Positions 48,594 to 64,000 of a stretch of 64,000 nucleotides of DNA are shown piece by piece. This DNA is from Fimbriimonadales bacterium. Lineage in GTDB: Bacteria; Armatimonadota; Fimbriimonadia; Fimbriimonadales; GBS-DC. A model generated the notes under the pieces. It ran no database searches. It saw only the letters and a program-made list of their open reading frames with translations, and had not been told where the DNA came from. The stretch is from contig AP024673.1 of NCBI GenBank assembly GCA_025998675.1, forward strand, positions 1,887,221-1,951,220. The letters are read 5' to 3'. Each line of letters opens with the position of its first letter. Position 1 is the first letter of the stretch. Both the position numbers and the translations under genes were made by a program.

Positions 48594-50018
48594 TTATATA
48601 CCTGCTTGCGGCGGGGGGCGGAGCGCGCGGATTTCGCGCAACAGCTCACGCAGCGCACGCCGACTGGCAGGCAGCAGGAACACCCCCAGCGCCAGCAGGG
48701 GCGCATAATACGCCACAGGCGCCAGCAATGAGACGCCCATCGCAACTGCCCAGAGCAGGTTCACGCCGTAATAGGGCTGCCCGATATAGCGCTTGATTCC
48801 CTGATGCAGAAAGACATTGTTCGGCAGATGCGCCAGAAAGTAAGCGACGCCGTAGCCCAGCACCTCATAGCCTTCGGGCGCGAGGGAGGCGCACAGCGCC
48901 GTAGACCAGTAGAGATTGAAGGCGAACACCAGCGCCGCGCGGGTCACCACATGGCTTTGACGAATCACATAGAGCGCCTGCGCCTGCGCGCTGAAGGTCG
49001 CCGTCAGTAGTTGTTCCGCCGTCAAAATCGCCAGCGCGAGAATCGCCAGCCGAATATCCCACTGTGCCCCGAAGAGAGGCGGCAGCACATGCCATGCGGT
49101 CAGCACAAATACCAAACTCGCGCCGCCCAGACTCAGAATCTGCGCCTGCGACGAGACATACAGCGTGTTTAGCAGCTTGTGTGGCTGATCCTGCAGGCGT
49201 GCAAACACCGAGGTCGTCACATTCCGTATCGCGATCTGCGCGAAGTTCAGCATGTTCAGCAGCCGCTCCGCCAGCGTCAGGTAGCCGACTGCTTCTTTCC
49301 CCGCGATGGGAAGCAACACGAGGGCAGGCGCGAGGTTTTTGGCGTAGTAAAGCCACTCGGACGCCGCCTGCGAAAAACTGAACCCCAGCATATCGCGCAG
49401 CATCCCCCGTTCCCACTGCCAGCGCGGTCGGTAGCGCGTGCTGAAAAACGCAAGCGATACATTCACCAGCTGCGCCGCCCAGTACGCTGCGACCAGCGCC
49501 CATACCCCAAACCCCAGCAACGCCATCGGCACACTCACCGCGTAGGAGCTGGTCTGCGCGAGCGTGTCGATGAGCGCAATCCGCTTATAGCGCAGCTCCT
49601 TTTCCAGCGCGGCTTGCGCGACGATACTCACCGCGTGCAGGGGCAACCCGACACACAGCGCAAGCGCAACCGTGAAGAAGCCTTCCGTGCGTATCCAGAA
49701 CACGCCCAGCACGCGCAGCGCCACCAGCGCCGCGCCTGTCAACGCCGCGCTGAAAAGCAGCAGCCACCAGAACGCCTGATGCCATATTTCGCGCGGCGCG
49801 TCCTGTGGGGCGCGTATCAGGTAAGTGCGCACGCCTGTACCGACCAGCTGGGTCAAAAACAGGTAAACGCCCATCGCTGAGGCGTACAAGCCGTAGTTTT
49901 CGGGACCGACGATGCGCGTCACATACAGCACGCCCACTATCGAGAGTGCAATGGTGAACACCCTGCGCAGGCTCAGGTAGAGGCTACCCTCCACCGCACG
50001 GCGGCGCAACTCACTCAT
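48594..50018 (-). CDS. Wzx-like polysaccharide flippase (MATE/MOP superfamily)
   Basis: 474 aa from ATG 50018, with 12-14 hydrophobic segments. The N-terminal SLYLSLRRVFTIALSIVGVLYVTRIVGPENYGLYA region is characteristic of lipopolysaccharide/teichoic-acid export proteins (polysaccharide synthase family). It would translocate lipid-linked oligosaccharide. It overlaps the FkbM gene by 8 nt, between that gene and a glycosyltransferase. Confidence 0.9.
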   Translation of the reverse strand: MSELRRRAVEGSLYLSLRRVFTIALSIVGVLYVTRIVGPENYGLYASAMGVYLFLTQLVGTGVRTYLIRAPQDAPREIWHQAFWWLLLFSAALTGAALVALRVLGVFWIRTEGFFTVALALCVGLPLHAVSIVAQAALEKELRYKRIALIDTLAQTSSYAVSVPMALLGFGVWALVAAYWAAQLVNVSLAFFSTRYRPRWQWERGMLRDMLGFSFSQAASEWLYYAKNLAPALVLLPIAGKEAVGYLTLAERLLNMLNFAQIAIRNVTTSVFARLQDQPHKLLNTLYVSSQAQILSLGGASLVFVLTAWHVLPPLFGAQWDIRLAILALAILTAEQLLTATFSAQAQALYVIRQSHVVTRAALVFAFNLYWSTALCASLAPEGYEVLGYGVAYFLAHLPNNVFLHQGIKRYIGQPYYGVNLLWAVAMGVSLLAPVAYYAPLLALGVFLLPASRRALRELLREIRALRPPPQAGI

Positions 50019-50922
50019 CGTCGGACAGTATGGCGACGCCCTGCCCTGTGAGGCGCTCGCGCAGGGCGTCCTCGCTTCGGACAGCGAGCCAGTTTTCCCA
50101 CTCGTCGACAACAGGCGCTTCGGGCAGGCGCTGTAGTCTTTCGCTGCTGACGACACGGTAGAGGATCCAGCCGCGCGCGCGCAGGTAGTCGGCAAGCGCC
50201 TGCACACTGCTGCCGTATTCCCCCGCGTTGAAGGCGTTCGCCTCCAGAAAGATAAAGCGCGTGCGCGTCAGGGTCGCCTCCGCGCCGCGCAACACAAACA
50301 GCTCGTAGCCCTCCACATCAACCTTGAGCAGGTCAATAGGCGTCGTCGCCAGCGGTTCGAAGCAGTCTAACGGCGTCATCGGCGCCATGAGCGCGCCTGC
50401 GCCTACAGGGGCGACGCGATTGTAGTCATCGCTGCGCACATCGGTGAAAGCAACCTCGCCTGCATGCGCGCCCAGCGCCAGGTTGTAAAGATGCAGGTTC
50501 GGCAAGCGGTTGAGCGCGGCGTTCGCCTGCAACTGCGCAAACACGCGCGGGTGCGGCTCGAAAGCGTACACCTGCGTCGTCTCGCCCAGCGATTTCGCAA
50601 GCGGGATGGCATGCGAGCCGATATTCGCGCCGATGTCCACAATCGTATCGCCCGGGCGCAGCAGTTTGCGCAGAAACCTCAGATCCAGCGCGCCATGCCA
50701 GCGTGAGGCGTGAAAAAACATCAGATGAGTCAGCGTCGTATCGAACAGCCGAAAGCGTGCGCCCTGATAGTGGAAAGACACGCGCTCATTTACCCCCAGC
50801 GCACGCAACAAGTGAAACAACACGAACCGACCAGGCGACTCCCAGTGGGCGCGTTGTCGCCAGACCCAGCGCCAGTGGCGCAGTGCGCGGCGAAGCGGAT
50901 GAACCTGAGCAGAGCCGCTCAC
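50011..50922 (-). CDS. FkbM family methyltransferase
   Basis: 303 aa from GTG 50922. The AdoMet motif TIVDIGANIGSHAIPLA (about 105-121) and YAFEPHPRVFAQL, VDVEGYELFVL and LEANAFN follow the FkbM pattern. The family methylates sugars or lipid-linked glycans. GGTATAAT (50934-50929) lies 6 nt before the GTG. The longer frame to 51057 is antisense to the divergent gene and is rejected. First gene of a three-gene glycan operon. Confidence 0.9.
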   Translation of the reverse strand: MSGSAQVHPLRRALRHWRWVWRQRAHWESPGRFVLFHLLRALGVNERVSFHYQGARFRLFDTTLTHLMFFHASRWHGALDLRFLRKLLRPGDTIVDIGANIGSHAIPLAKSLGETTQVYAFEPHPRVFAQLQANAALNRLPNLHLYNLALGAHAGEVAFTDVRSDDYNRVAPVGAGALMAPMTPLDCFEPLATTPIDLLKVDVEGYELFVLRGAEATLTRTRFIFLEANAFNAGEYGSSVQALADYLRARGWILYRVVSSERLQRLPEAPVVDEWENWLAVRSEDALRERLTGQGVAILSDDE

Positions 50923-50928
50923 ATACGG

Positions 50929-50965
50929 ATTATACCAGAGTCGCGACAGAAAAGGCAGGTACAAT
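50929..50965. promoter_or_regulatory. Divergent leaderless promoters (FkbM operon / GT39-like gene)
   Basis: Minus TATAAT (50934-50929) and plus TACAAT (50960-50965), each preceded by GG, lie 6 and 7 nt before their start codons (GTG 50922, ATG 50973). Confidence 0.65.
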
Positions 50966-50972
50966 TTCCCTG

Positions 50973-52293
50973 ATGGGTACAGCGCTTCGCAAACTGCCTG
51001 CGTGGCTCCACCACCCGCTGCTGATTGTGGGAGTCGCTCTGTGTCTGCGCATGGCATGGACAGTTGCCTATGAACCGTGGCGCGACGATTACGAGCGACT
51101 GATTGCCCGTGCGCCCAGCCCCGACTCAGGTTCCTATCAGGAGGTGGCTCTCGTATGGCTCCACTACTGGAATAAGCCCGGTCAGGCGATTCGTGAGCAA
51201 CCCGAAGCCATCGATTCTATCATCATTCGCGCGCCGGGCTATCCCCTGATGATGGCGCTTCTCTACGCGCTGTTTGGCGTCAATCCGTTCTGGGTGGTTC
51301 TGGCGCAGATGGGCGCAAGCGTCGCGAACTGTTATCTGGTGATTGCCGCGTTGCGGCGTATCAGCAGCCCTCTGGGGGCTGCGCTGGGGGGATGGCTCTT
51401 TGCAGTGAATCCGATTCTTATCGATCACACACAGCTGATTCTAACCGAGACTTTTTTCGTGCTGGGTGCGACGCTACTACTTTATTCGCTCTGCCGGTGG
51501 CGTGCGCATCCTGCGCCTGACCCCCTGCGCGCAGGGTTCGGCAGCGGCGTTGCCCTGGCGTTCACCACGCTCATACGCCCGGGGATGTTGTGGTTAGCGC
51601 CGGTTCTGGGCGTGCTGGGCGTTTTTTTCGCGCCCGCTTTCGGCGCAGGCGCGTCTGCGCTGGCTGGCAGGTTATCTTGTGGGCGTCGTGGCTCTCTTAG
51701 CGCCGTGGTCGGTATATAACCGCGTGCATTACGGATCATGGCGCTTGACCGTCGCTGGCGAACTGTACCTGCTGGATATGACCGGGCTTGCTGTTGCCCG
51801 GATGCAGAAGCCCATTCACGAGGCGAGGGCGATTCTGGAGGCAGAAGCGCTGGCGCATATGCAACGGGACGGCTTGGATCCCAATCGCCAGATTTTTGAG
51901 CGGGGGCGCTACTACCGCGCGACGGCTCAACGCTATATCCAACAACACTTCAGCGATTTTGTCTATTACTGGCTACGCGGGATGGTCTTCTTCTGGCGCT
52001 CGGCGGCAGGACCGAACACAGGAGGTGCATGGATTGAGTCGGCGACGGCTGTGAAGTTGTGGTTTCAGGTCTACCATTTTGCCTGGATGACGGCGCTTCT
52101 ACTGGGGCTATGGTTCACCTGGCGGTCTCGGCAGCATCGCTGGTGGGCGATACTGTTTGTGAGCATAGCGCTCTACTTCACCGTCAGTGCCGGATGCAGC
52201 GGCAACGCGCGATTTCGATTGCAAACCTTCGCCTTTTCGCTGCCTGTGATTGCCGTTGGATTAGGCATTCGGCGCGACTCACGCCAAGTGTAG
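50973..52293 (+). CDS. GT39-like membrane glycosyltransferase interrupted by a frameshift
   Basis: Two open segments of one gene: 50973-51719 in one frame and about 51601-52293 in another. The first has PDSGSYQEVALVWL and SIIIRAPGYPLMMALLYALFG, matching the dolichyl-mannosyltransferase-like PMT_2 plan. The second carries VALLAPWSVYNRVHYGSWRLT and the C-terminal helices. The switch occurs at a run of seven T at 51622-51628; six T would restore FSRPLSAQARLRWLAGYLVG. Combined length is about 439 aa. It could be a genuine mutation, a sequencing error or slippage-dependent expression. Confidence 0.75.
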
Positions 52294-52328
52294 CACTTTT
52301 GCGAGGGTGCGCTCCTCTGAAAGTGGGG

Positions 52329-52334
52329 TATAAT
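52329..52334 (+). promoter_or_regulatory. -10 box of the GHL15-like gene
   Basis: GGTATAAT, with a leader of about 14 nt before ATG 52355 that contains GAGGAGA. This is a leadered promoter with a Shine-Dalgarno, unlike its neighbours. Confidence 0.6.
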
Positions 52335-52354
52335 GGGCGTGAGAGGAGAGACCC

Positions 52355-54256
52355 ATGCGTGCATACTATCGGGTTCTGGGTAGTGTAGTATCGGTCGCTG
52401 TCTGGGGGGCTGCGCTCGCGCAGCAGCCGCTTATCAACTACGCCACGCTGTTTGGCGAGTTCGATTTCGACTACTATCGGGGCAACCAAAATGTCGGGAT
52501 GCTACGCGACGGCGTCGCGGAAGGGTTCTCGTTCAACATCCCTTCAGACTTCACTGCCGAACTGGACGAAACCGATAAAGTGAGTGGGCTTGCGTCTCAG
52601 AAAATCAGTTTCAATCGGAATAGCTCCTCCGTCGCCGAAGCTTCACTTTCTATGCGGATGGACTTCCCTTCAGACGACTACCCCCGCCCTGGAGAAACCA
52701 TCCGTATTTCGCTGTGGGTGAAAGCAGAAAACTGGGTCAACGCCTCGCTGCGTATCCGAGCGCGCGGCTTGGATAGTTCTGGCAGTGTGGATTTGCTCAA
52801 CACAACAAGCGTGCCCAACACTTGGACTGAGCTGGTCTTCAACTACACTGTGCCCAGCTCGAATCCGCAAGGGGTAAGGCTGGATCTGTTTGTTCGGTCG
52901 CTGAGCGGCGTTTCGTCAGGCGTTATTCGCTTCGACAAACTGGAAGTGACGGGTAGCAAGCGCTGGCGCCCGCACCAACCGCGCAGTCTCAAAATCGCCG
53001 CGCCCTACTACGCCTGGGCAGAGGAAAACCAGCGCGACTGGGTCTACTACTCCCGTGAGTTCGATCTGATGTTAGCCATCTGGGACGACATCAAAGCGCT
53101 CCGCACACACCGTCCCGATCTACTGAATGTTTATTACTACAACCTGATCTATAGTGTTCGTACACCTAATCGGGCGTGGGAACAACGCGATATATTCGGC
53201 TACTACTATTGCGATCTCAACCACCCCGACTGGTTCCTGCTCAATATTTCTGGCAATCGTCAGCAGTTCGGCTCCGACCGCTATGTGATGGATATTGGCA
53301 ATCCTCAGGCGTCCGCGTGGGCAGCCCAAAATTTGGGCTTATCGATGCTGTACGCAGATACAGGCGTGGACGTGATCCACTTCGACAGCTTCATCGACTT
53401 TTTCTTCTTGAACTTTCAGTTCCAGAAGTACCCCACTCGCGCCAGTCGTATCGCGGCGATGCACAAGCACCTTCTGAACATGCGCAATACGCTCAGCGAC
53501 AGGGATATCAAGTTCATTATCAACACTGCGTCCGCGCTCTACACACGCGACCAGCCGCACACTTACTTCGCGCGTCAAGGGCTGCTGGATGGGTTGTTGA
53601 TGGAAGAAGTTTTCACGACGATTTACTCCCTGCCAGCAGGTTTTCTCTCGTTCACAGTCTGGGAAGGGCAATTGAACACCCTGATTGAGAATCGCCCGCG
53701 CCTTCGGGTAGTGTACACAGGATACGCTGTCCGAAATGCTGCGGAAGGACGGCGACAGAAAATCTACGCGCTGGCGAGTTTCCTACTATGCTCGGACAAC
53801 AACAATTACCTGTACCTCGACAAGCACTACTACGACGCGCCGCCGAACCGCCAGCGCAGCTGGCGTCCCGACGCTGATTTCGATGTGCCGCTCGGTGAAC
53901 CCACAGGCGGGGTACAGGTGCTGTATCGTTCCTCGGATTATCAGGGCGGGCTTTATTACCGACCTTTCCAGAATGGCTTTGTTCTGGTCAATCCCACAGG
54001 GAATGTCACCCCCAGTTTCAAAGATGGCGCGGTGTTCACTTATATTCTGGACGCCGACTATCGGGAGCTGTGGTCAGGGCAACTGTTCCCAGCAGGCTCG
54101 CGCATCAAGCTCTACCCGAAAGAGGCGCGCATCTTCTATCGGGAGAGTAGCGGACTGCGAACGCCCCCCGGCTCGGACGACGGCGGTCGCAAACCTGAAC
54201 TGTCGGGAGGCGGCAGCAAGATTCTGCCGAGTGGCGACCCCATTCGAAAACGATAA
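52355..54256 (+). CDS. Secreted GHL15-like putative glycoside hydrolase
   Basis: 633 aa. A signal peptide (VVSVAVWGAALAQ) is followed by a beta-sandwich domain (about 30-205, RISLWVKAENW) of CBM type. The catalytic TIM-barrel-like region (about 215-500) has DVIHFDSFIDFFF and LLMEEVF, which provide candidate acidic residues. A C-terminal beta domain and Gly/Ser-rich tail follow. It resembles the hypothetical glycosyl hydrolase 15 (GHL15) family; substrate unknown. It sits after glycan synthesis genes and may trim surface or foreign polysaccharide. Confidence 0.78.
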   Translation: MRAYYRVLGSVVSVAVWGAALAQQPLINYATLFGEFDFDYYRGNQNVGMLRDGVAEGFSFNIPSDFTAELDETDKVSGLASQKISFNRNSSSVAEASLSMRMDFPSDDYPRPGETIRISLWVKAENWVNASLRIRARGLDSSGSVDLLNTTSVPNTWTELVFNYTVPSSNPQGVRLDLFVRSLSGVSSGVIRFDKLEVTGSKRWRPHQPRSLKIAAPYYAWAEENQRDWVYYSREFDLMLAIWDDIKALRTHRPDLLNVYYYNLIYSVRTPNRAWEQRDIFGYYYCDLNHPDWFLLNISGNRQQFGSDRYVMDIGNPQASAWAAQNLGLSMLYADTGVDVIHFDSFIDFFFLNFQFQKYPTRASRIAAMHKHLLNMRNTLSDRDIKFIINTASALYTRDQPHTYFARQGLLDGLLMEEVFTTIYSLPAGFLSFTVWEGQLNTLIENRPRLRVVYTGYAVRNAAEGRRQKIYALASFLLCSDNNNYLYLDKHYYDAPPNRQRSWRPDADFDVPLGEPTGGVQVLYRSSDYQGGLYYRPFQNGFVLVNPTGNVTPSFKDGAVFTYILDADYRELWSGQLFPAGSRIKLYPKEARIFYRESSGLRTPPGSDDGGRKPELSGGGSKILPSGDPIRKR

Positions 54257-54292
54257 GACCACATCGGGGAATGCAGAAGCTACTTAAAGACG

Positions 54293-54333
54293 CCGTCAGC
54301 CCAGGGGCGCAGAACTGTCCCTGTTGCTGACGG
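54293..54333. terminator. Hairpin after the GHL15-like gene
   Basis: CCGTCAGC (54293-54300) pairs with GCTGACGG (54326-54333), 25-nt loop. It lies 37 nt after the stop, with no T-run. Confidence 0.45.
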
Positions 54334-54395
54334 CGCCGCATCAACCTTTGCCGCGAGACCAGAATTATCAGTGTCGCATCCCTGCTCATTCGAGG

Positions 54396-54401
54396 TATAC
54401 T
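54396..54401 (+). promoter_or_regulatory. -10 box, leaderless promoter of the M16 peptidase pair
   Basis: GGTATACT is 7 nt before ATG 54409 with no Shine-Dalgarno. Confidence 0.65.
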
Positions 54402-54408
54402 GTGCCTT

Positions 54409-55710
54409 ATGAACCCAATCGCGACGACTCGAATTGAGTACGAAACCTACACCCTCCCAAATGGCTTGCAAGTTATCCTGTCGCCGCACAAAGTCGCGCC
54501 GACGGTCGCCGTGCTGGTGCTTTACAAGGTCGGCTCGGTGAACGAACCTCGCGGAAAGACGGGCTTCGCACACCTGTTTGAACACATGATGTTTCAAGGC
54601 TCCGAAAATGTGCCCCGCGAGATGCACTTCAAGTATGTGGAATCAAACGGGGGCGTACTGAACGGATTCACCTCCTACGATTTGACGGCGTATTTTGAGC
54701 TGCTGCCCGCGTCCAAGCTGCCGCTGGGACTGTGGTTGGAAGCCGACCGCATGCGCACGTTGCAGGTATCGCAGGAGAATCTGGACAACCAGCGCGCGGT
54801 GGTCAAGGAGGAGCGGCGGCTGTCGGTGGATAATCAGCCCTACGCCCGCGCGATGGAGCGCCTGCGCGAACTGGCGTATGACAACTTCGTGAATCAGCAC
54901 TCCATCATCGGCTCGATGGAAGACCTCGACCACGCGACGCTGGCGGATGTGCAGGCGTTTTTCCGCACCTACTACGCGCCCAACAACGCGGTGCTGGTTG
55001 TGGCGGGCGACTACGACCCCGACGAGGCGCGTGCGTGGATTGAACACTACTTCGCCGATATTCCGTCGCAGTCGCCCCCGTCGCCCGTGGATGCGTCGGA
55101 GCCTGACCGCGAGGAACGGCGGGAGGTATTTTTCGACCCGCTGGCGAGCGTGCCCGCCGTTGCGCTCACATGGAAAATCCCGCCGCGCGGCACGCTGGAG
55201 AACGACGCGCTGCAAATCGCGGGCGACCTGCTGACCGACGGACGCGCCTCACGCCTGTATCAGCGGCTGGTGAAACAGGAACAGATAGCGATTAGCGTTT
55301 CGGGCGGCGCGGAGGCGCGTCCCGCGCCCAGCCTGTTCCGTCTGTTCGCGCTGCACCATCCGCATGTGGACCCCACGCGGGTGGAGGCAGTATTGTACGA
55401 GGAGATTCAGAAACTCGCCGAGCAGGGTGTGCCTGAGCGCGAGCTGGAGCGTGTGCGGGCGCAGCTGCTGGCGCAACGCTGGAGCGACAACCTCTATTAC
55501 GGCATGCAAAGCCCGCTGGGGCGCGCGCTGGGGCTGGCGTACTTCGCGGCGTTCGAGGGCGACCCCGACGGCGTCAACCGCGCGCTGGAGCGACTGATGT
55601 CCATCACGCCCGACGATGTGCAACGCGCCGTGCAACAGTATCTGCACACGACGCGCAACCGCACGGTGATGCATATTCAGGCGGGCGCGATGCAGGAGGG
55701 CGCTGCATGA
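54409..55710 (+). CDS. M16 family zinc peptidase, active subunit
   Basis: 433 aa. The inverted zinc motif HLFEH (His55, Glu58, His59) is intact, with the distal Glu in the NQRAVVKEERR helix. Two M16 halves (about 10-220 and 225-430) are visible. Such proteins pair with an inactive partner to degrade peptides in a clamshell. No signal peptide, so cytosolic or non-classically placed. The partner gene follows with an ATGA overlap. Confidence 0.95.
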   Translation: MNPIATTRIEYETYTLPNGLQVILSPHKVAPTVAVLVLYKVGSVNEPRGKTGFAHLFEHMMFQGSENVPREMHFKYVESNGGVLNGFTSYDLTAYFELLPASKLPLGLWLEADRMRTLQVSQENLDNQRAVVKEERRLSVDNQPYARAMERLRELAYDNFVNQHSIIGSMEDLDHATLADVQAFFRTYYAPNNAVLVVAGDYDPDEARAWIEHYFADIPSQSPPSPVDASEPDREERREVFFDPLASVPAVALTWKIPPRGTLENDALQIAGDLLTDGRASRLYQRLVKQEQIAISVSGGAEARPAPSLFRLFALHHPHVDPTRVEAVLYEEIQKLAEQGVPERELERVRAQLLAQRWSDNLYYGMQSPLGRALGLAYFAAFEGDPDGVNRALERLMSITPDDVQRAVQQYLHTTRNRTVMHIQAGAMQEGAA

Positions 55711-57011
55711 ACCGCGCCACGCCGCCCCCCGATGTGTCGATGCGCCCGTCGCAGCTGCCGCTGCCCGAGGCGCACACCCTGCCGAATGGGCTGCGCGTGC
55801 TGACCCTGCCCGATTCGCGCGCGCCTGTGGTGGAGTTTCGGCTGGTGTTGCCCTTCGCGGGACGCGCCTACGACGCGCCCGACTGGGTGGGGCTGTCGTC
55901 GGCGACCGCGCGACTGATGATTGCGGGCACACCGACGCGCACCAGTTTCGAGATTGCTGACGAAGCCGACCGCTGCGGCGGCAGTATTGGCGTGAGCGCG
56001 AACACCGAGACCGCCATCCTGAGCGCGCGCTGCCTGTCGGCGTCTCTGGAGCCGATGACGCGCCTGATGGCGGATGTGCTGCTCCATCCAACTTTCCCGC
56101 CCGACGAGGTGGAGATCGACCGCGCGAACACGCTGCAGCGACTGCGCTTACAGCGCTCGCAGCCCGCGTTTTTGGCGGAGGAGCGACTGCGCCTTGCGCT
56201 GTTTGGGGCGCACCCCTACGCGCGCCTTGCCCCAGACGAGAACGCCCTGCAACGCTGGGGCGTGGACGAGCTGCGCGCGTTCCATGCCGCACGCTACCGC
56301 CCGGCGGAGGCGACGCTGCTGATTGCGGGCGACTTCGAGACCGGCGCGCTGCTGGCGTTGCTTGCTGACGCGCTGAGCGAATGGCAGGGCGGTATTGATT
56401 CGGAACCCCTGTCTGCGCCGCCGTTGCAACCCGCCGAGACGGGCTGGCTGCTCACCCCGCGCCCCAACTCGGTGCAGAGCCATCTGATGCTGGGCGCGCT
56501 GTGCCCGCCGCGCGATGCGCCCGACAGCCTCGCACTCCAGCTCGCCGTCAGCCTGCTGGGGGCGGGGGCAAGCTCGCGCCTGTTTTTGACCGTGCGCGAG
56601 CAGTATGGCTACGCCTATAGCGTCGGCGCACACCTCGATTACTACCTGCGTATTGGCGCGTTCGTCGCGGAAGCGCAGACCGCCACCGAGAACACTCATG
56701 ACGCCATCCGCCAGATTCGCGCCGAAGTCGAACGGCTCATCCACGACCCCATCCCCGCCGATGAGCTGCAAGCGACACAGAACTACCTGATTGGACGACA
56801 CCTGCTGGGGCGCATCACGCTGGGCGGAATCGCCGACCTGTATAAGCAGGCGGTCATCTACCATCTGCCGCTGGACTACTGGCAGCGCTATCCAGAGATG
56901 CTGGCGTCGCTGACCGCAACCGAGGCGCAAACAGCCGCCGCGCGCTACCTGTCGCCCGAAGGCTTCGTGACGGTCGTGGTGGGCGAGCCGGGGTTGGATA
57001 GCGATTCGTAG
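55707..57011 (+). CDS. M16 family peptidase, non-catalytic partner
   Basis: 434 aa. The same two-lobe M16 fold, but the HxxEH motif is absent at the N-terminal position (the equivalent stretch reads SSATARLMIAGTPTR). The substrate-binding Arg/Tyr motif REQYGYAYSVGAH in the C-terminal lobe is retained. It therefore supplies the R/Y pair to the HxxEH partner encoded just upstream. Confidence 0.93.
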   Translation: MNRATPPPDVSMRPSQLPLPEAHTLPNGLRVLTLPDSRAPVVEFRLVLPFAGRAYDAPDWVGLSSATARLMIAGTPTRTSFEIADEADRCGGSIGVSANTETAILSARCLSASLEPMTRLMADVLLHPTFPPDEVEIDRANTLQRLRLQRSQPAFLAEERLRLALFGAHPYARLAPDENALQRWGVDELRAFHAARYRPAEATLLIAGDFETGALLALLADALSEWQGGIDSEPLSAPPLQPAETGWLLTPRPNSVQSHLMLGALCPPRDAPDSLALQLAVSLLGAGASSRLFLTVREQYGYAYSVGAHLDYYLRIGAFVAEAQTATENTHDAIRQIRAEVERLIHDPIPADELQATQNYLIGRHLLGRITLGGIADLYKQAVIYHLPLDYWQRYPEMLASLTATEAQTAAARYLSPEGFVTVVVGEPGLDSDS

Positions 57012-57012
57012 T

Positions 57013-57930
57013 CTACTGTGCATGCGCTTGAAGCACAGTGCGCCACTTCTGCGTCATGGGGTCGTCGGGCAGGGCGTCCAGTATTTCCAGCGCGTCGGCG
57101 TAGAAGCCCAGCTGATACAGCAGCGCGACGCAGGTGCGGGGAGCGTGCTGGCGATTGGCGCGCGCCCATGCGAGGCGCGCCTGCTCGTCGGGCGTGAGTG
57201 TGCGGAACTCGTAGACGCCGCGCAGTCCCTCGCCTGCGACCTCGCCTGCCGCCAGCGCCTCCAGCGTCAGGCGGTAGCGTGCGCCCGGCGCGAGCGTTGC
57301 GTCAGGCGCGAGGCGTGCGATTGTGTCCTCCACCACCAGCGGCGCGGTCTCCCCTGTGTCGATGCGCTCCAGTCGCGCGCGGTAGCGCACGGCGTCGGGC
57401 ACAGCCTGCCAGCGGAACACTGGGGTCAGGCTCTCCAGCGCAGCGTTGGCGGGGTTCGGCGAAAGCAGGCGCACGGCGCGTTCAGCAGGTGGGCGCTCGT
57501 CGCGGGTGAGCGCGTCGGGCGGGCTGGCGAACGCCGCCGCCGCTGCCGACGCCCATTCGGGCAGCCGCGTCGCCCCTTCGTACCAGACGCCGTTCTCCTG
57601 ACGGAGCGCGACCGAACCTGCAGGGCTGCCGACCCATAGCAGACGCAGACCAATAAAGACGATCAGCGCCGCCGCTGCCGCCGCGGGGATCCAGAATCGC
57701 AGCGCAGGCAGCCACCGCGCCCGACGCGCCGCGCGAACGGTCGCCTCCGCCTGAAGCAGGCTTTTGTAAGTCTCACGACACACAGGACACCGCACGATAT
57801 GGTCGATATATTCGTCGTAGCGCGGGCAGCGTCGCCCCCGCTCGACCAGCTCGATAATCTGTTCCGCGCTCAGATGTGCCTTGTCCACCCTATCTTCTGG
57901 ATGCGCCACTGCCATAGTGTTCGCTCGCAT
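57013..57930 (-). CDS. Zinc-finger anti-sigma factor-like membrane protein
   Basis: 305 aa from ATG 57930, with AAGGAG 8 nt upstream. The N-terminal ZAS-type motif is CPRYDEYIDHIVRCPVCRETY (His-x3-Cys-x2-Cys), followed by one transmembrane helix (about 78-96) and a roughly 200-residue extracytoplasmic region with FRWQAVPDAVRYRARL, an Ig-like/fibronectin-type strand pattern. It is presumed to hold the sigma factor encoded 21 nt upstream at the membrane. The stop is 1 nt from that of the convergent M16 gene. Confidence 0.82.
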   Translation of the reverse strand: MRANTMAVAHPEDRVDKAHLSAEQIIELVERGRRCPRYDEYIDHIVRCPVCRETYKSLLQAEATVRAARRARWLPALRFWIPAAAAAALIVFIGLRLLWVGSPAGSVALRQENGVWYEGATRLPEWASAAAAAFASPPDALTRDERPPAERAVRLLSPNPANAALESLTPVFRWQAVPDAVRYRARLERIDTGETAPLVVEDTIARLAPDATLAPGARYRLTLEALAAGEVAGEGLRGVYEFRTLTPDEQARLAWARANRQHAPRTCVALLYQLGFYADALEILDALPDDPMTQKWRTVLQAHAQ

Positions 57931-57951
57931 TGTTCGATCTCCTTGTATCGC

Positions 57952-58698
57952 TCACTCGATTCTGAGATACTTTGCCAGTTTCAGCGCGGCGCGGCGCAGG
58001 TCGGTCTGATTCGGTCGCTCGGCGTGCAGCGCGTCGCGTTCGGGAGGGCTGAGCGACTCGCCGTCGCTTGCCAGCTGTTCAATCGCGCGTTGCACGGCGT
58101 CGTCGCCGCCCAGCCACTCGCGCTTATGCTGAATCAGATACGCCAGCACTTTGGCGCGTCCGCGCATCACATGGGTGCGCACGGTCGCCGCGTTCATCCC
58201 CAGCATCTGCGCAATGTCTTCCAGCCGCTCTTGCTGCGCGTGTAGCCAGAGAACCCGCCGCTCCGCGTCCGAGCAGACCTGTTGCACAATCGCATACAGT
58301 TGCGCCTGCGTCTGTTCATCGGCAATCCGCTCTAACAGACTCGCCTCGAACGACTCCTGTTGCAATTCGTCAACGGCGTCGGGCTGGTCGAGCGCGGCGA
58401 AGGGCGTCTCGGCAGTGCGGTAGGCGCGGCTGTAGAAGCTAATCAGGCAGTTCGAGGCGATTCGATAGAGCCAGTGTTCGTAGGGCGCGCTCAGTTGCGT
58501 GCGGGGCAGCGCGTTCGCGACGCGCAGCAGCGTCTCCTGAATCAGGTCCTCGGCGTCCTCCGCCGTGCGCACGCGCGAACGGAAATAGCGCATCAGTCGC
58601 GTCCGACTCTCCTCCAGCAACCGCTCCAGCGCGTCCGAGTTGCCCTGAGCCGCCTCACGAGCCAATCGACTCAAAAGCTCATTACGGTCATCCTGCAC
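57952..58698 (-). CDS. ECF-type RNA polymerase sigma factor
   Basis: 248 aa from GTG 58698, with GGGAG 8 nt upstream and TACAAT at 58725-58720. Region 2 spans about residues 20-85 (AEDAEDLIQETLLRVANAL, WLYRIASNCL) and region 4 about 130-190 (LEDIAQMLGMNAATVRTHVMRGRAKV). A C-terminal extension of about 50 residues (to 248) goes beyond a minimal ECF factor and is charged. It is followed by its probable anti-sigma gene and divergent from the TPR-CHAT gene. Confidence 0.9.
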   Translation of the reverse strand: MQDDRNELLSRLAREAAQGNSDALERLLEESRTRLMRYFRSRVRTAEDAEDLIQETLLRVANALPRTQLSAPYEHWLYRIASNCLISFYSRAYRTAETPFAALDQPDAVDELQQESFEASLLERIADEQTQAQLYAIVQQVCSDAERRVLWLHAQQERLEDIAQMLGMNAATVRTHVMRGRAKVLAYLIQHKREWLGGDDAVQRAIEQLASDGESLSPPERDALHAERPNQTDLRRAALKLAKYLRIE

Positions 58699-58802
58699 GC
58701 CAATACTCCCAATAGACCAATTGTACCGCTTGGGGTGCAACAGTTTCAGGATCGGGCGAGTCTTGACGCATAGACACTTTTCGGGCAGCCTTGCGTTCGA
58801 CT

Positions 58803-58871
58803 TGCCTGCCAAGCAACTGCCTGCCAAACCATAAAGTGGAAGCGCCTGCCTGCCTCTTGCAGGGCAGGCAG
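58803..58871. promoter_or_regulatory. Cluster of four TGCCTGCC sites between the sigma and CHAT genes
   Basis: TGCCTGCC occurs at 58803-58810, 58818-58825 and 58847-58854, and inverted (GGCAGGCA) at 58863-58870. The last two form a 9-bp hairpin (CTGCCTGCC/GGCAGGCAG). The sites lie in the 255-bp divergent intergenic region and may be a regulator's binding array. Confidence 0.5.
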
Positions 58872-58941
58872 AACAAAAGCGGCGCAGGGTGTTTTAACAG
58901 ACGGTGCGGCAGCTTGTGCCCGTCACTATGCCTTATTGGGC

Positions 58942-58947
58942 TATAAT
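58942..58947 (+). promoter_or_regulatory. -10 box, leaderless promoter of the TPR-CHAT gene
   Basis: TATAAT is 6 nt before ATG 58954, with no Shine-Dalgarno; no matching -35 is obvious. Confidence 0.6.
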
Positions 58948-58953
58948 TGCGGT

Positions 58954-61695
58954 ATGCAGGCGACCCTCCCCGCCGGCTGGACGCAGGCGGAATACGAATG
59001 GCTGCGCGCGCTGGGGCAGGCGCGTGAGAGTGCGCCCCTGTGGCGCCAGAATCGCGACTGGCAGCGCGCGTCATGGGTGCAGGCGAAACTCGACGCGCTG
59101 CAAGGGCTGCCCCCAGAACAGATGCAGCTGCTAACGCCCGCCGTGCAGGGCTTGATTCGCCTCTCGGATCGGCTGGGCGTGCTGGAGTTGCGGTGCTACG
59201 CGCGGCAACGGCTGCTGGGGTTCTATCTGTCGTTGTATCAGCTGCGCGATGCGCCGCCCGTGATGCGTGCGCTGGAGTCGCTGCTGCCCCGCGCGTCGGT
59301 ACAACGCCAGATGGAGGGTTGGCGCACGCTGGCGGGACTTTACCGTATGCTGGGCAAGCTGGAACAGGCGCAGGGAGCCGCGCAACGCGCCTACCGCGCC
59401 GCGCAGACTCATGGCGACGCGGCGCAGCTGGGCAAGTGTGAATTCACGCTGGCGACGCTGCACTACACCGCGGGCGACCTGGACGCCAGCCTGCAGATGG
59501 CGTTGCGCGCCCGCGCCAGCGCACAACGCGCCCAGAACGCTTTCGGGCTGGCAGAGTGCTACATTTTCGAGGGCGTTGTGCGCCGCGCGCGCGGCGAGTA
59601 CGACGAAGCGCTGCATGCCTACCGAAATGGACGCCAGTGGAGCGAGCAGGCGAATCACCCTCTGGGCGTCGCCCGATGTATTGCCAACACGGGGCTGGTC
59701 TACTGGACGATGGGGCTTTACGAGGACGCCCGCCTGCACTACCGCGAGGCGATGACGCGTTTCCAACAGCTCGGCGCAGACTGGGATGTGGCGACCTGCA
59801 CGCTGAACACGGCGCTTCTGCTGCAACAGGACGGCGACTATGAGGGCGCGCTGGAACTCTACGCGCAGGCGCAGCAGCGCTATGAAGCGCTGGGCGACCC
59901 AGAAGGGATCGCCTTCTGCCTGCTCAATCGCGGGGCGACCTACCTCGACATGGAGCGATTCGACCGAGCCGTGCACTCGGCGCATCAGGCAGCGGTGCAG
60001 TTCGACCGTGTGCCGCATACGCTGTCCGCGGTGCAAGCGCGCCAGGTGAAGGCGCAGGCGCTGTTGCACTTGAACCGTCCCCGCGATGCGCTGGCGTCGT
60101 TGAACGCCGCGCAACGCCTGCTGGATACCCTCCCCAACCCGACGCTGGCGATTCGGCAGGCGTATTTGATGGGCGAGTCGCATGGTCGGCTGGGCGAGTC
60201 GCGCACTGCCCGACGCCAGTTCGAGGCGTGTCTACGCACGATTCGCGAGACGCCGTCGCTGCGCAATCTGCCTCCCGAAGAGATCGGGATGTATCTCAGT
60301 CAGTTCCGCGAGGTCGTTGCCTCTATCGTCGCCTACTATGGGCGCGTGGGCGACTGGCGCGCCGCGTTCGACGCCTGCCAGCAGGGCAAGGGCAACGCGC
60401 TGCGCCTGGCGTGGAACGCGCCCGCCGAGCTGCCCGAACTGTCTCGAACAGAGCGCCAGCGTCTGGACGCCCTGCGCCAGCGATACGAGACCGTCCAGAG
60501 CCGCCAGACCCGCGCGCGCACGCCCGCCGAGCTGCGCCAGCGTCGACGCGAGACCGAGCGCGCCCTGCTGGAGTGGCGCGCGTACCAGCGCACGCTCGCC
60601 GCCCGCTACCCCCGCCTGAGCTGGCGACAGCCCAAACCGCTCCGCCCTGAACAACTGCCGCTCGACAATCACACGCTGCTGGTGGAGTACGCCGTCGCGC
60701 CCGACTATCTGACCCTCGTGTGGGCGCGTCGGCAGGGTGGACGCACTGTGCTGGGTGGGCGATGCATTCGCATCTCCGCCGAGACGCTCCGCCGCGAGAT
60801 TCAAGCGCTGCTGCAAGCGTTGGAGACCGAGTCGCCGCTGGAGCGCGTGCATGCGCACGCCCGCGCGCTGTACGACTTTCTGATTCGTCCGCTGGAGCCG
60901 TTGCTGGTGGGCGCGCGGCAAGTGATTGTGTGCCCCGATGGGGACTTGCACGCGACTCCGTGGGCGGTGTTGCGCGACTCGCGGGGGCGTTATCTGCTGG
61001 AGCGCGTTGCGATTGCCAGTTGCCCGTCGGCGTCGGCGTGGGCGTCGGCGGCGCGGCTGGCGCGTCCCCCGCGCACGCCGCAGCGCCTGCTGGCGGCGGC
61101 GGTGTCCGAGTTCCCTGGCGCAGGAGGCGAGACCCGCGCACGGCTCAGCCCACTGCCCGGCGCGGCGCAGGAAGCCCGCGCTATTCAGCGCGTGTGGGGG
61201 GCGCGCACACAGCTCCTGCGCAATCAGCGCGCCACACGCGACCAGCTCACGCGCGCGCTCACCCAGGCGGACGCCCTCCACCTCGCCACGCACGCCACGC
61301 CCAACCTGCGCATGCCCATGCTCAGCGCGATTGCGCTCTGGGGCGAGTCGCAACCGCAGTGGCTCTACGCGCACGAGGTGCTGCAGATGCGCCTGAAGGC
61401 GCGCCTGACGACGCTCTCTGCATGTCAGACTGCTGTGGGCGCTACCAGCGCGGACGGCGCGCTCGGACTGCACTGGGCGTTCCTCGCCGCAGGCTGCCCC
61501 ACCGTGCTGGCGACGCTGTGGCGACTGCCTGACGCCGTCGCGCCCCTGTGGAGCGAGCAGTTCTACACGCGCTACAAACGCGGCGAATCGGCGCTCTCCG
61601 CTCTGCGCGCCGCCTGCCTGCACATCCGCCGCGACCCGCGCTTCCAGCACCCCCGCTACTGGGGCGCGTGGCAACACTTCGGGGCAATCTCCTGA
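58954..61695 (+). CDS. TPR-CHAT protein (caspase-like protease)
   Basis: 913 aa from ATG 58954. Residues of about 70-430 are tetratricopeptide repeats (CYIFEGVVRRARGEYDEALHAY, GLVYWTMGLYEDARLHYREA and others). A charged linker follows, and residues of about 600-913 form a CHAT domain with catalytic His780 (LHLATHA) and Cys824 (LSACQT), both intact. CHAT proteases are clan CD cysteine peptidases. It is divergent from an ECF sigma/anti-sigma pair. No signal peptide, so cytoplasmic. Confidence 0.93.
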   Translation: MQATLPAGWTQAEYEWLRALGQARESAPLWRQNRDWQRASWVQAKLDALQGLPPEQMQLLTPAVQGLIRLSDRLGVLELRCYARQRLLGFYLSLYQLRDAPPVMRALESLLPRASVQRQMEGWRTLAGLYRMLGKLEQAQGAAQRAYRAAQTHGDAAQLGKCEFTLATLHYTAGDLDASLQMALRARASAQRAQNAFGLAECYIFEGVVRRARGEYDEALHAYRNGRQWSEQANHPLGVARCIANTGLVYWTMGLYEDARLHYREAMTRFQQLGADWDVATCTLNTALLLQQDGDYEGALELYAQAQQRYEALGDPEGIAFCLLNRGATYLDMERFDRAVHSAHQAAVQFDRVPHTLSAVQARQVKAQALLHLNRPRDALASLNAAQRLLDTLPNPTLAIRQAYLMGESHGRLGESRTARRQFEACLRTIRETPSLRNLPPEEIGMYLSQFREVVASIVAYYGRVGDWRAAFDACQQGKGNALRLAWNAPAELPELSRTERQRLDALRQRYETVQSRQTRARTPAELRQRRRETERALLEWRAYQRTLAARYPRLSWRQPKPLRPEQLPLDNHTLLVEYAVAPDYLTLVWARRQGGRTVLGGRCIRISAETLRREIQALLQALETESPLERVHAHARALYDFLIRPLEPLLVGARQVIVCPDGDLHATPWAVLRDSRGRYLLERVAIASCPSASAWASAARLARPPRTPQRLLAAAVSEFPGAGGETRARLSPLPGAAQEARAIQRVWGARTQLLRNQRATRDQLTRALTQADALHLATHATPNLRMPMLSAIALWGESQPQWLYAHEVLQMRLKARLTTLSACQTAVGATSADGALGLHWAFLAAGCPTVLATLWRLPDAVAPLWSEQFYTRYKRGESALSALRAACLHIRRDPRFQHPRYWGAWQHFGAIS

Positions 61696-61786
61696 AAAAA
61701 CTGCCTGATTCTCCCCTGACCGCCGCCAGAGGTGCAACGCTTCCCGACAGCGGCGAGTCTTGACCTACGCAGGGAGAAAGGAGACC

Positions 61787-61816
61787 ATGAATCCCTGCAA
61801 GGAGGAAGAACCATGA
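61787..61816 (+). CDS. Nine-codon leader ORF MNPCKEEEP coupled to the PEP-CTERM gene
   Basis: ATG 61787 with AAAGGAG upstream reads M-N-P-C-K-E-E-E-P and stops at TGA 61814-61816, overlapping the start ATG 61813 of the next gene (ATGA). The next gene's own AAGGAGG lies inside the leader. The arrangement suggests translational coupling; coding is not proven. Confidence 0.45.
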   Translation: MNPCKEEEP

Positions 61817-62757
61817 AGCGATACTCTGTGTCTGTTGCGCTCGCACTTGCGTGCTTGAGCGTGAACACTGCTACGGCGCAGTTTACGGGAATGGCGGGTA
61901 CCATCGGGATTTGGCACGGCACATATCAAGTCGGCGCGAACCAGCCCAACCCGATCTACGACGCGAATGGGTTCATGCGCTCCCCAGGCGCAGACTATCC
62001 CCTGGCTCATAGCCCGACGATTGTCAACAGCTCCGGGCTTAACTTCGCGACGGGCTCACCCGGAATCGCCTTTCTGAACCAGGCGACCGCCCCCGCTGGT
62101 CAGTTTGGCGGGGCAAGCACCCGAATGTATTCCGTGGTAGGACCAGCTCTGGGAGCGCTCTGGTGGACCGACTACACCGTTCGCGATGTGCCTTCTAACA
62201 ACGGCGTGGGTACCTTCAACGCCTCTGGAGGCAATGTCGTCTTCCAAAATGGCGCATTTGCCTGGGCGACGCGAGCCGGCATCTACTTCCCGTTCGCGGG
62301 GTTCGCAATGGGCGTCAACGCCTATGTCGCGGGCGCGATGCTGTTTCAAATGACCATCCTGGACGCCGCGAATGTGATTGTGGATCAGTTCATCATGGGC
62401 GTCCACTTCGGCTTCGATGGGCTTGGACCGCGCCCGAACGGGGTGTATGTATACGGCACGACGCCCGCGTTCTGGGGCTGGGCGTTCCAGGACTTCGGAA
62501 CCTCCTTCCGTGGCTATGGGCTGGCGTGGAAAAATGTCGTCATCCCCGCAGGCGGACAGGTGATCTTGGAAGGAAGGCTCACGATGCTGGCAGACCCCGA
62601 CGCTGGGTTCGACTTCGACAACAGCTTCGATAACGACCCCAGCGTGCTTGCGAATCTGCCCAGTCTGGGGTACACCACGGTACCCGAACCCGCCAGTATG
62701 ACGGCGCTGGGTGTTGGGCTACTCGCGATGCTGGCGCGTCGCCGACGCTCTGCCTGA
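61813..62757 (+). CDS. PEP-CTERM anchored exported protein
   Basis: 314 aa. A signal peptide (MKRYSVSVALALACLSVNTATA) and a beta-rich, aromatic/Gly-rich body without a known enzyme motif precede a C-terminal PEP-CTERM signal: VPEPASM, the hydrophobic TALGVGLLAMLA, then RRRRSA. This implies an exosortase elsewhere in the genome. AAGGAGG precedes the ATG. The in-frame extension to 61732 would push the signal peptide inward and is rejected. A terminator hairpin and repeat copy D follow. Confidence 0.85.
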   Translation: MKRYSVSVALALACLSVNTATAQFTGMAGTIGIWHGTYQVGANQPNPIYDANGFMRSPGADYPLAHSPTIVNSSGLNFATGSPGIAFLNQATAPAGQFGGASTRMYSVVGPALGALWWTDYTVRDVPSNNGVGTFNASGGNVVFQNGAFAWATRAGIYFPFAGFAMGVNAYVAGAMLFQMTILDAANVIVDQFIMGVHFGFDGLGPRPNGVYVYGTTPAFWGWAFQDFGTSFRGYGLAWKNVVIPAGGQVILEGRLTMLADPDAGFDFDNSFDNDPSVLANLPSLGYTTVPEPASMTALGVGLLAMLARRRRSA

Positions 62758-62766
62758 TACCCCTCA

Positions 62767-62802
62767 GCGGCTCCTCCGATACGGGGGAGCCGCTGCGCTT
62801 TT
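62767..62802 (+). terminator. Intrinsic terminator of the PEP-CTERM gene
   Basis: GCGGCTCC (62767-62774) pairs with GGAGCCGC (62786-62793), followed by TGCGCTTTTAT. Confidence 0.72.
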
Positions 62803-62956
62803 ATACCAGTCAGCGGGTCATAGTTCGCAAAGCGGCGATTTATGGAGTGCGGAAGCTCCCGCTTCAGCACTCCAAAGTAGCAAATCGCGGGCAACAGTAT
62901 GTTTCTGCAGGTAAGCGCGAGGCAATTAGCGAACTTTGACTGCAAAGTTGGTACTA
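62803..62956. repeat. Mosaic repeat copy D (ATACCAA-type ends)
   Basis: The left end ATACCAGTCAGCGGGTCATA (62803) and the right end, complement of TAGTACCAACTTTGCAGTCA, flank a GGAGTGC...GCACTCC core with GGAAGC/GCTTC hairpins. It aligns with the reverse complement of copy A along most of its length. The TAG of the right end is the stop codon of the PilC-like gene. Confidence 0.85.
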
Positions 62957-64000
62957 TCCCCCCATCCACTGCTCCACAGCGGGGATGAGGTTTCGGTAGT
63001 AGCCCGCCGCGAGACTGATCAGCGCAATCCCTGTGGCGATGAGGCTAATCAAGACCATCAGGCGGAAGAAGGCGCGGGGCAGCTGACGCTGGCTCTCAAC
63101 AGCATACTGGTTGTACCATGCCGTGAGGGTCTGCAGTACCTGAGGCAGTTCGCCCGTCTGCACGCCTGTGCGCGCGAGCATCACCTCCTCGATGGGGAAC
63201 AGCCCCGACCGTTCCAGCGCGTGGTCGAGATGCGCCGCGCTCTCCGCGCGCCCCAAATCCACCGCAAGCAGCGTCTCCGCCAGCGCGCGGTTGGGCACGG
63301 TGCCCGCCGCCAGCCTATGCGCCGTCGCAGGCGCCACCCCCGCCTGCGTCAGCCGCGCCAGATGGAACAGATATTGCTCCAGCGATTGGGCGCGAATCCA
63401 GTGGCTATAATTGAACAGCCCCAGCCCGCTCAGGCGCAGGCGCGCGCTCAGACGATCCAAACCCGACAGCAGGTAGCCCAGCAGCATCAGCGCCGTCAGC
63501 AGCAGCGTCGCGGGCAGCCCGTAGCGCAGGTACGCCTGACCCACCCCGCCAGCAATCACCCGCAGTGCGTCCGTCGTGTCGCCGCCCGTAAACGCGCGCA
63601 AGCTCCAGGCCAGCCCCAGCCCGAATACGCCCACCAGCGGCAACAGCAGCGCCGCATGCCAGAGACACCCATGCGTCAGCAGCGACCAGCGACGCACGGT
63701 GCGCCACTGCTCATAATAGGCAATCAGGCGGTCGAGCATTTCGGGCAGATAGCCCCCATACGCGGCGGCGCGGAACGCCCCCACCAGAAACTGCGGGAAC
63801 AGGTCGGGGAACTTCGCCAGCGCGTCGGCGAGGGCGACGCCCTGCGCCGCGTCATGGGCGATGCGCTCGCTGGCGCGGCGCAAGCCCCCGTGAGTCGTGC
63901 GCTGGCTGAGCGTCTGGAACACTTGCGCGGGCGACATCCCCGCCTTGAGCATCGAGCGGAGCTGAATCAGCCACAGCGCCATCGCGTGCGGCGCAACGCG
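62954..64000 (-). CDS. Type IV pilus inner-membrane platform protein PilC/GspF-like, 5' end outside window
   Basis: 349 codons are visible and the frame stays open to base 64000, so the true start is probably beyond the edge; ATG 63982 is an internal Met. Two GspF domains (about 10-125 and 205-325: QLRSMLKAGMSPAQVFQTLS and FHLARLTQAGVAPATAHRLA) and three transmembrane helices are seen. It forms the platform on which PilB acts, but lies 18 kb from pilB. The stop TAG is provided by repeat copy D. Confidence 0.88.
   Translation of the reverse strand, partial: RVAPHAMALWLIQLRSMLKAGMSPAQVFQTLSQRTTHGGLRRASERIAHDAAQGVALADALAKFPDLFPQFLVGAFRAAAYGGYLPEMLDRLIAYYEQWRTVRRWSLLTHGCLWHAALLLPLVGVFGLGLAWSLRAFTGGDTTDALRVIAGGVGQAYLRYGLPATLLLTALMLLGYLLSGLDRLSARLRLSGLGLFNYSHWIRAQSLEQYLFHLARLTQAGVAPATAHRLAAGTVPNRALAETLLAVDLGRAESAAHLDHALERSGLFPIEEVMLARTGVQTGELPQVLQTLTAWYNQYAVESQRQLPRAFFRLMVLISLIATGIALISLAAGYYRNLIPAVEQWMGG

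Follow-up and report, generated by a model that had tools for sequence, protein, structure and literature searches.

A TPR-CHAT Protease Gene Linked to an ECF Sigma/Anti-Sigma Pair in a Fimbriimonadales Genome Suggests a Craspase-Like Switch Without CRISPR

Introduction

A predicted TPR-CHAT protease, an extracytoplasmic function (ECF) sigma factor, and a putative zinc-finger anti-sigma factor are encoded side by side in a 64,000-nucleotide stretch of a Fimbriimonadales genome (contig AP024673.1; hereafter, the window), which covers 1.887–1.951 Mb of a 2.99-Mb genome assembled as one contig and whose nearest named relative among the genomes compared here is Armatimonadetes MAG (metagenome-assembled genome) HOT.MAX.079. 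The parts seen of two reports on Craspase, a type III-E CRISPR system, describe the protease Csx29 as cutting Csx30, an inhibitor of the sigma factor CASP-sigma (PMC10028731, PMC9729208). The combination found in the window, with sigma factor, ZAS anti-sigma factor, and TPR-CHAT protein as separate genes, suggests by analogy a module that would resemble a Craspase-type switch without CRISPR. A chance neighborhood is ruled out by co-occurrence of the three genes in the genus, enrichment of sigma genes upstream of CHAT genes in the phylum, and clustering in the CHAT tree, and we regard it as highly probable that the trio is a real module. An element resembling an ECF promoter, located ahead of both the CHAT gene and a PEP-CTERM gene, is new here. 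Our working reading, which we hold at somewhat under even confidence, is that the trio forms one signaling module in which the CHAT protein would relieve the hold of the anti-sigma factor on the sigma factor, which would then fire TGCAAC-N15-CGAGTC promoters.

The Three Genes and Their Products

The open frame of the sigma gene reaches position 58827 (57952..58827, minus strand), and its product matches Sigma70_r2 (5e-10) and Sigma70_r4_2 (4.8e-7) and exceeds the cut-off of TIGR02937 (sigma70-ECF; 1.2e-16); regions 2 and 4 together with the sigma70-ECF model assign it to the predicted ECF sigma factors. For the product of the adjoining gene, none of the curated family models was over its cut-off. 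Its residues 19–51 form the motif H-x24-H-x3-C-x2-C, of which H44, C48, and C51 are unchanged in 19 relatives; H-x(24–25)-H-x3-C-x2-C followed by a transmembrane helix is what we take to be the ZAS anti-sigma signature, and the window protein fits it. The structural model (predicted local distance difference test, pLDDT, 84.5) consists of N-terminal helices, a single hydrophobic helix of transmembrane length, a beta-sandwich, and TPR-like C-terminal hairpins. The sandwich resembles FN3/CopC-type domains (Z up to 10, root-mean-square deviation 2.4, 86 residues) and has a profile match to fibronectin (4e-8), and the Foldseek and VIA match lists for the protein were taken up by this FN3 domain (residues 151–247). 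The designation as a probable zinc-finger anti-sigma factor is drawn from the motif, the architecture, and the place in the operon, and not from a solved homologue of the ZAS part. A tandem pair of M16 peptidase genes (window positions 54409–57011) is convergent to the anti-sigma gene; no match to this pair lies beside the orthologous sigma and anti-sigma genes of G002, a genome of the same genus.

The CHAT open frame (58936..61695, plus strand) has its likely start at ATG 58954, from which the numbering of the catalytic pair, H780 and C824, is exact. It matches Pfam CHAT (PF12770) with an E-value of 2.4e-58 (198.3 bits against a cut-off of 24) as well as TPR families, and is the sole CHAT gene of its genome. 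Both catalytic residues are unchanged in alignments of 25 and 29 CHAT sequences, and alignment A4, which includes L093, L097, L103, and L099 and omits L111, a member of the group described below, has the catalytic His in every row; by family and by its His/Cys pair, the protein is a predicted peptidase. In its model (mean pLDDT 88.5), an extended TPR superhelix is followed by the CHAT fold; among solved structures, the model most resembles separases, the Csx29 chains of Craspase, and the anti-sigma factor DdvA. Profile comparison with solved chains gave DdvA at 2.3e-14, Craspase chains at 6e-14 to 5e-9, and separases at 3e-5.

The initial annotation had read an ECF sigma factor, a probable zinc-finger membrane anti-sigma factor, and a TPR-CHAT protein with His780/Cys824 at this place, with the CHAT start and the sigma gene head to head, and all of this was recovered. 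Its suggestion of a defence role is unsupported, PADLOC having returned merely weak TPR and CARF-HTH matches. No RNA families were found in window positions 50000–64000.

Conservation and Linkage of the Trio

Conservation of the trio, which the initial annotation had singled out for checking, was borne out by an all-or-none distribution in the genus, an upstream enrichment in the phylum, and a single group of sigma-adjacent CHATs. Among the 13 genomes of the genus comparison, orthologues of all three genes are present in seven and none in six (completeness of the latter 65–96%), a pattern with a Fisher p of 6e-4 without correction for kinship; the CHAT orthologues share at least 56% identity. 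The genes lie close together in five of the seven (the window genome, G002, G005, G006, and G011), and extra genes separate sigma from CHAT in three of these linked loci (G002, G005, and G006). All three genes have decayed in G012, where the sigma gene is missing an internal segment, the anti-sigma gene is frameshifted, and the CHAT gene is truncated at both ends, with the active site gone; in G005, the CHAT gene is frameshifted and the sigma/anti-sigma pair is intact. Beside the kind of locus found in the window (type A), five genomes carry a second operon (type B) encoding a sigma factor, a ZAS-transmembrane anti-sigma factor, a protein of ~520 aa with a weak sigma-region-4-like stretch, an exported TPR-CHAT protein, and a second anti-sigma factor; further arrangements in other genomes are referred to as type C. 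Proteins of ~510–520 aa that weakly resemble sigma region 4 over one stretch also stand by CHAT-linked sigmas in L035 (6968–8524) and L036 (5227–6762), and the protein in L035 has a HAF repeat as well.

The phylum comparison covered 201 genomes, of which 107 contain a CHAT. The regions of 100 CHAT open reading frames of at least 500 aa, spread over 65 genomes, were fetched nearly by descending CHAT score, so that low-scoring CHATs are under-represented; sigma factors were detected with a profile built up from the window's sigma, and the counts of sigmas at CHATs are therefore lower bounds. An ECF sigma gene was found within 3 kb upstream of 25 of the 77 CHATs that had this much upstream DNA (22 co-directional), and at most 2.5 were expected from an upper-bound ECF sigma density per genome based on first-look counts. 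Downstream sigmas, an internal control, were at chance level (4 of 100 CHATs versus 2.9 expected).

On a 115-row CHAT-domain tree, the window CHAT belongs to a group of 29 members from eight families (SH-aLRT 91), 26 of which adjoin a sigma gene, co-directionally in 20 cases and divergently in 6. The exceptions are L028 (in G003, where the pair is at another place), L087 (whose sigma, 3.54 kb upstream, is barely past the cut-off), and L098 (none found). Labels for sigma linkage require 10 changes on this tree as compared with 27–40 in 300 shuffles, and the linkage recurs in separate CHAT lineages. A 65-row sigma tree separates the sigma factors belonging to the group, type B, and type C from other ECFs, with four changes of the label "CHAT-linked"; the group label likewise changes four times, where shuffles average 21.6. 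Distances between CHATs track those between their sigmas (r 0.90 over 28 pairs, shared ancestry not removed), a correlation that none of 2000 permutations reached.

The usual order in families f11, f16, f27, and f36 is a sigma factor, a protein of ~160–215 aa, and a cytosolic TPR-CHAT protein; the middle protein has a beta-sandwich-like C-terminus in all cases and a zinc finger in some, and no match to it was found among plasmids. Treating this soluble protein and the window anti-sigma factor as one family was considered and dropped: profile comparison aligned the zinc-finger part alone (probability 5%), and homology is not claimed. In f20 and f39, nine of the 11 loci have by the CHAT gene a divergent sigma-like gene whose region 2 matches weakly (E 0.026 and 0.002), with a ZAS-transmembrane gene next in most. 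The divergent sigma-region-2-like genes of L136 (9313–10368) and its homologues in the f20/f39 loci lie directly behind an exported CHAT gene and are under the Pfam cut-off.

That CHAT genes as a rule stand by sigmas was also rejected, on the plasmid loci and on the tree members that are unlinked or only convergent to a sigma. Six plasmid CHAT loci out of 209 matching records (Azospirillum, two Caballeronia, Hymenobacter, and two Nostoc) contain no annotated sigma in the stretch. The CHAT genes of the two Caballeronia plasmids (L148, L149) lie directly before genes for a ShlB/FhaC-type transporter and a filamentous-hemagglutinin-like protein, beside a type VI secretion cluster.

It could be argued that the genes share an inherited order and do not interact, as the unlinked genes of G003 and G012 and the genes lying between sigma and CHAT in three of five linked loci would allow. 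The all-or-none presence and the joint decay in G012 speak against this, as do the retention of the association over eight families despite changed gene order and partner type and its recurrence in separate CHAT lineages, and we consider a neighborhood without function very improbable.

A Recurrent ECF-Promoter-Like Element

The element TGCAAC-N15-CGAGTC (Table 1) was found through a direct repeat in the window (D14) and comparison of the regions behind CHAT. Clear orthologues of the PEP-CTERM gene occur in five of the 13 genus genomes, each directly behind the CHAT orthologue, and the element precedes all five with a spacer of exactly 15 nt. It is also present, with the same spacer, in the sigma-divergent region of all five genomes concerned (the window genome, G002 with one mismatch, G003, G005, and G011), and the surrounding intergenic DNA is hardly alignable outside it; a scan between the module genes of G006 and G012 gave no element. 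The AAC in its upstream half is consistent with an ECF promoter. The L027 (7216–9483) and L032 (7218–9278) loci, from G002 and G005, encode behind the sigma-divergent element, between sigma and CHAT, a protein of 686–755 aa that has no Pfam match and shows, by eye, dockerin-like repeats toward its end.

Table 1. Features of the module in the window (positions within the 64,000-nucleotide stretch).
Feature	Position	Strand	Remarks
Putative anti-sigma factor	57013..57930	-	305 aa; ZAS zinc finger, one transmembrane helix (~83–99), FN3 beta-sandwich, TPR-like C-terminal hairpins
Predicted ECF sigma factor	57952..58698	-	likely GTG start 58698; conserved C-terminal extension of ~55 aa
TGCAAC-N15-CGAGTC inside sigma gene	58338..58364	-	408 nt before anti-sigma start
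TGCAAC-N15-CGAGTC, ECF-promoter-like	58736..58762	+	points at CHAT gene, 192 nt before ATG
Predicted TPR-CHAT protease	58954..61695	+	913 aa; His780/Cys824; without export signal
TGCAAC-N15-CGAGTC	61733..61759	+	45 nt before PEP-CTERM ATG
PEP-CTERM exported protein	61804..62757	+	directly behind CHAT

Across the genus, the exact pattern has 23 matches in the seven sigma-bearing genomes and none in the six sigma-less ones, and a reversed control pattern has none in all 13. Six of the matches lie within the sigma gene, nine are module sites, and eight are elsewhere; among these last, three (in G003, G006, and G012) stand, on visual reading, before what appear to be exported-protein starts, and the other five seem to be coding. 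The sigma-internal element is present in all six intact sigma orthologues, 407–414 nt before the anti-sigma start, and its codons CAA and AGT are kept in all six; it may be an internal promoter or a coding coincidence. In the window, all three exact matches fall inside the module; at up to two mismatches, the 64-kb window has 10 matches against 8.0 expected, which is no excess. The motif counts in the genus (7 of 7 sigma-bearing versus 0 of 6 sigma-less genomes) are weakened as proof because six matches, one per genome, are intragenic in sigma and most of the eight off-module matches look coding. Upstream regions of 23 sigma-CHAT operon loci from other families showed no common element by eye. 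The case for a predicted promoter is carried by local evidence, namely ten module sites, from which we infer that the elements are promoters of the trio's sigma factor. Their recurrence at CHAT and exported-protein genes indicates that the sigma factor probably transcribes the CHAT gene, which would make CHAT also its target, and a set of exported-protein genes.

Proposed Mechanism and Alternatives

The compartments of CHAT proteins and their partners were called in 39 loci by a crude hydropathy rule. The two agree in 30 loci, with 14 exported CHATs beside transmembrane anti-sigma factors and 16 cytosolic CHATs beside soluble partners. In eight loci, the CHAT is cytosolic and the anti-sigma factor has a hydrophobic stretch, five of these loci being of type A; in the remaining three, the stretch lies near the C-terminus (L118), the CHAT falls under the export cut (L125), or the CHAT start is unsure (L105). 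The single reverse mismatch (L043) has a value of 1.59 against a cut of 1.6. That partner topology follows CHAT topology suggests direct contact between the two proteins.

We think it somewhat probable that the CHAT protein acts on the sigma factor through the anti-sigma factor; that it does so by cleaving the latter, as the comparison with Craspase and DdvA would have it, we rate as slightly short of an even prospect. In the proposed mechanism, the membrane anti-sigma factor would hold the ECF sigma factor by its ZAS domain, to judge from motif, architecture, and operon, and the TPR superhelix of the CHAT protein would sense a cytosolic signal. The CHAT protein would then relieve the inhibition, most likely by a cut on the cytosolic side of the anti-sigma factor, in the linker between the ZAS domain and the transmembrane helix; the type A CHAT is predicted to be cytosolic, so it could reach only the ZAS part and this linker. 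In the window genome and G011, the freed sigma factor would transcribe the gene for CHAT, giving positive feedback; it would also transcribe the gene for the PEP-CTERM surface protein and those for other exported proteins.

Several observations weigh against this reading. Most departures from the compartment match belong to the window's own type A, whose five loci pair a cytosolic CHAT, lacking an export signal, with a transmembrane anti-sigma factor that would lie mostly beyond the cytosol. The CHAT gene and the pair are on different contigs in G003 and G012, where kilobases of other genes surround the sigma gene, and G003 keeps the link between CHAT and PEP-CTERM though that between CHAT and sigma is lost. 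On the 115-row tree, 72 CHATs are unlinked to a sigma or merely convergent to one, so that a CHAT alone is no sign of a sigma. Finally, the CHAT gene carries an element of the sigma type, so the linkage may partly mean "target of sigma" and not "activator of sigma."

This last point leads to an alternative in which the CHAT protein is an output: the pair would be switched by an envelope route (proteolysis of the anti-sigma factor of the site-1/site-2 type), CHAT and PEP-CTERM would be its regulon, and the CHAT protein would cut another protein. The element before CHAT in the window genome and G011 and before PEP-CTERM in five of five genomes speaks for this alternative; PEP-CTERM stays with CHAT in G003, where sigma is elsewhere, and other genes come first after the sigma-divergent element in G002, G005, and G003. 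It sits poorly with the wider group, in which 20 of 29 CHATs are co-directional behind a sigma and a partner gene, with the direct contact suggested by the matching topologies in 30 of 39 loci, and with DdvA, whose CHAT domain lies within an anti-sigma factor. We judge it rather unlikely.

The same DdvA domain lends itself to another alternative, namely that the CHAT protein does not cut and is a co-anti-sigma factor or scaffold, which would bind the anti-sigma factor or the C-terminal extension of the sigma factor and tighten or loosen inhibition. DdvA, an anti-sigma factor by its title, has a CHAT domain, so a CHAT can belong to an inhibitor, and the soluble partners consist of a beta-sandwich-like domain, which in some is joined by a zinc finger. 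The catalytic His and Cys, for which a pure scaffold would have no need, are nevertheless invariant over 29 widely diverged CHATs, and this alternative appears improbable.

Relationship to Known Systems

The trio and Craspase/CASP, as far as the latter is described in the parts seen of its reports, have in common a TPR-CHAT protease with a His/Cys pair, a sigma inhibitor, and an ECF-like sigma factor (PMC10028731, PMC9729208). Unlike in Craspase, neither Cas7-11 nor CRISPR RNA (crRNA) was found near the trio, CRISPR arrays not having been searched genome-wide, and the inhibitor is a ZAS-transmembrane-FN3-TPR protein whereas that of Craspase is Csx30. The type III CRISPR-like RAMP genes of the same genome are separate genes in two clusters (at 98–103 kb and 1.20 Mb), at least 0.74 Mb from the trio (1.944 Mb). 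The Csx29 model NF041237 (cut-off 300 bits) matched nothing in this genome, the window CHAT included, and no CHAT of the phylum was over the cut-off (best 48.7 bits). Its best five places in the phylum are all held by CHATs of the sigma-linked group, four of the five from one family, and the model ranks the group ahead (rank test p 1.5e-4, kinship not controlled), with matches at 1e-3 for 13 of the 24 CHATs in the group and 16 of the 76 outside it. The Craspase analogy drawn by the initial annotation is somewhat strengthened by this preference of the Csx29 model for the sigma-linked group, though the model does not match the window's own CHAT.

DdvS and DdvA are a sigma/anti-sigma pair of Myxococcus xanthus, according to the part seen of PMC4374960, and the PDB entries 8rot and 8rw5, titled "transmembrane anti-sigma factor" DdvA, carry a CHAT domain; from the name, we infer that this is the DdvA of that pair. 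It shares with the trio the set of ECF sigma factor, anti-sigma factor, and TPR-CHAT, gives the best profile match to the window CHAT with TM-scores of 0.47–0.49, and retains the H and C in the alignment. DdvA differs in holding its CHAT within the anti-sigma factor, whereas the window has separate genes and a CHAT without ZAS and transmembrane parts; among the CHATs of at least 500 aa that were scanned, no ZAS motif was found in the first 140 residues.

Two further systems offer partial parallels. A review of group ECF54, in the part seen, notes CHAT, subtilase, and carboxypeptidase genes in the genomic context and relays a published suggestion that the ECF is under proteolytic control, with CHAT thus among the protease genes adjoining an ECF as here; the ECF54 model member is actinobacterial (PMC8999054). 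The EACC2-caspase systems likewise combine a caspase-fold peptidase, an ECF sigma factor, and a TPR protein in one neighborhood, in their case with DUF1822, but the caspase family and partners are different, and the part seen of that report names neither CHAT nor an anti-sigma factor (PMC8195603). In the open-licence literature, outside which lie most subscription papers and the 2021 ECF classification, no CRISPR-free module of a sigma factor, a ZAS anti-sigma factor, and a separate TPR-CHAT was found, and none in Armatimonadota.

Implications

Control of sigma factors by caspase-fold proteins has so far been shown mainly in one rare CRISPR type. It is conceivable, though we hold the idea to be doubtful, that TPR-CHATs regulating ECF sigma factors via a ZAS or beta-sandwich inhibitor are an old CRISPR-free class and that Craspase is such a switch placed under a crRNA-guided sensor; the preference of the Csx29 model for sigma-linked CHATs is a first hint in support of an origin of Craspase from a switch of this kind. 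The sigma factor, inhibitor, protease, and predicted promoter are all named, so the complete circuit can be reconstructed. If the module represents a general signaling class, it would tie caspase-like proteases to ordinary gene regulation and would suggest where Craspase came from.

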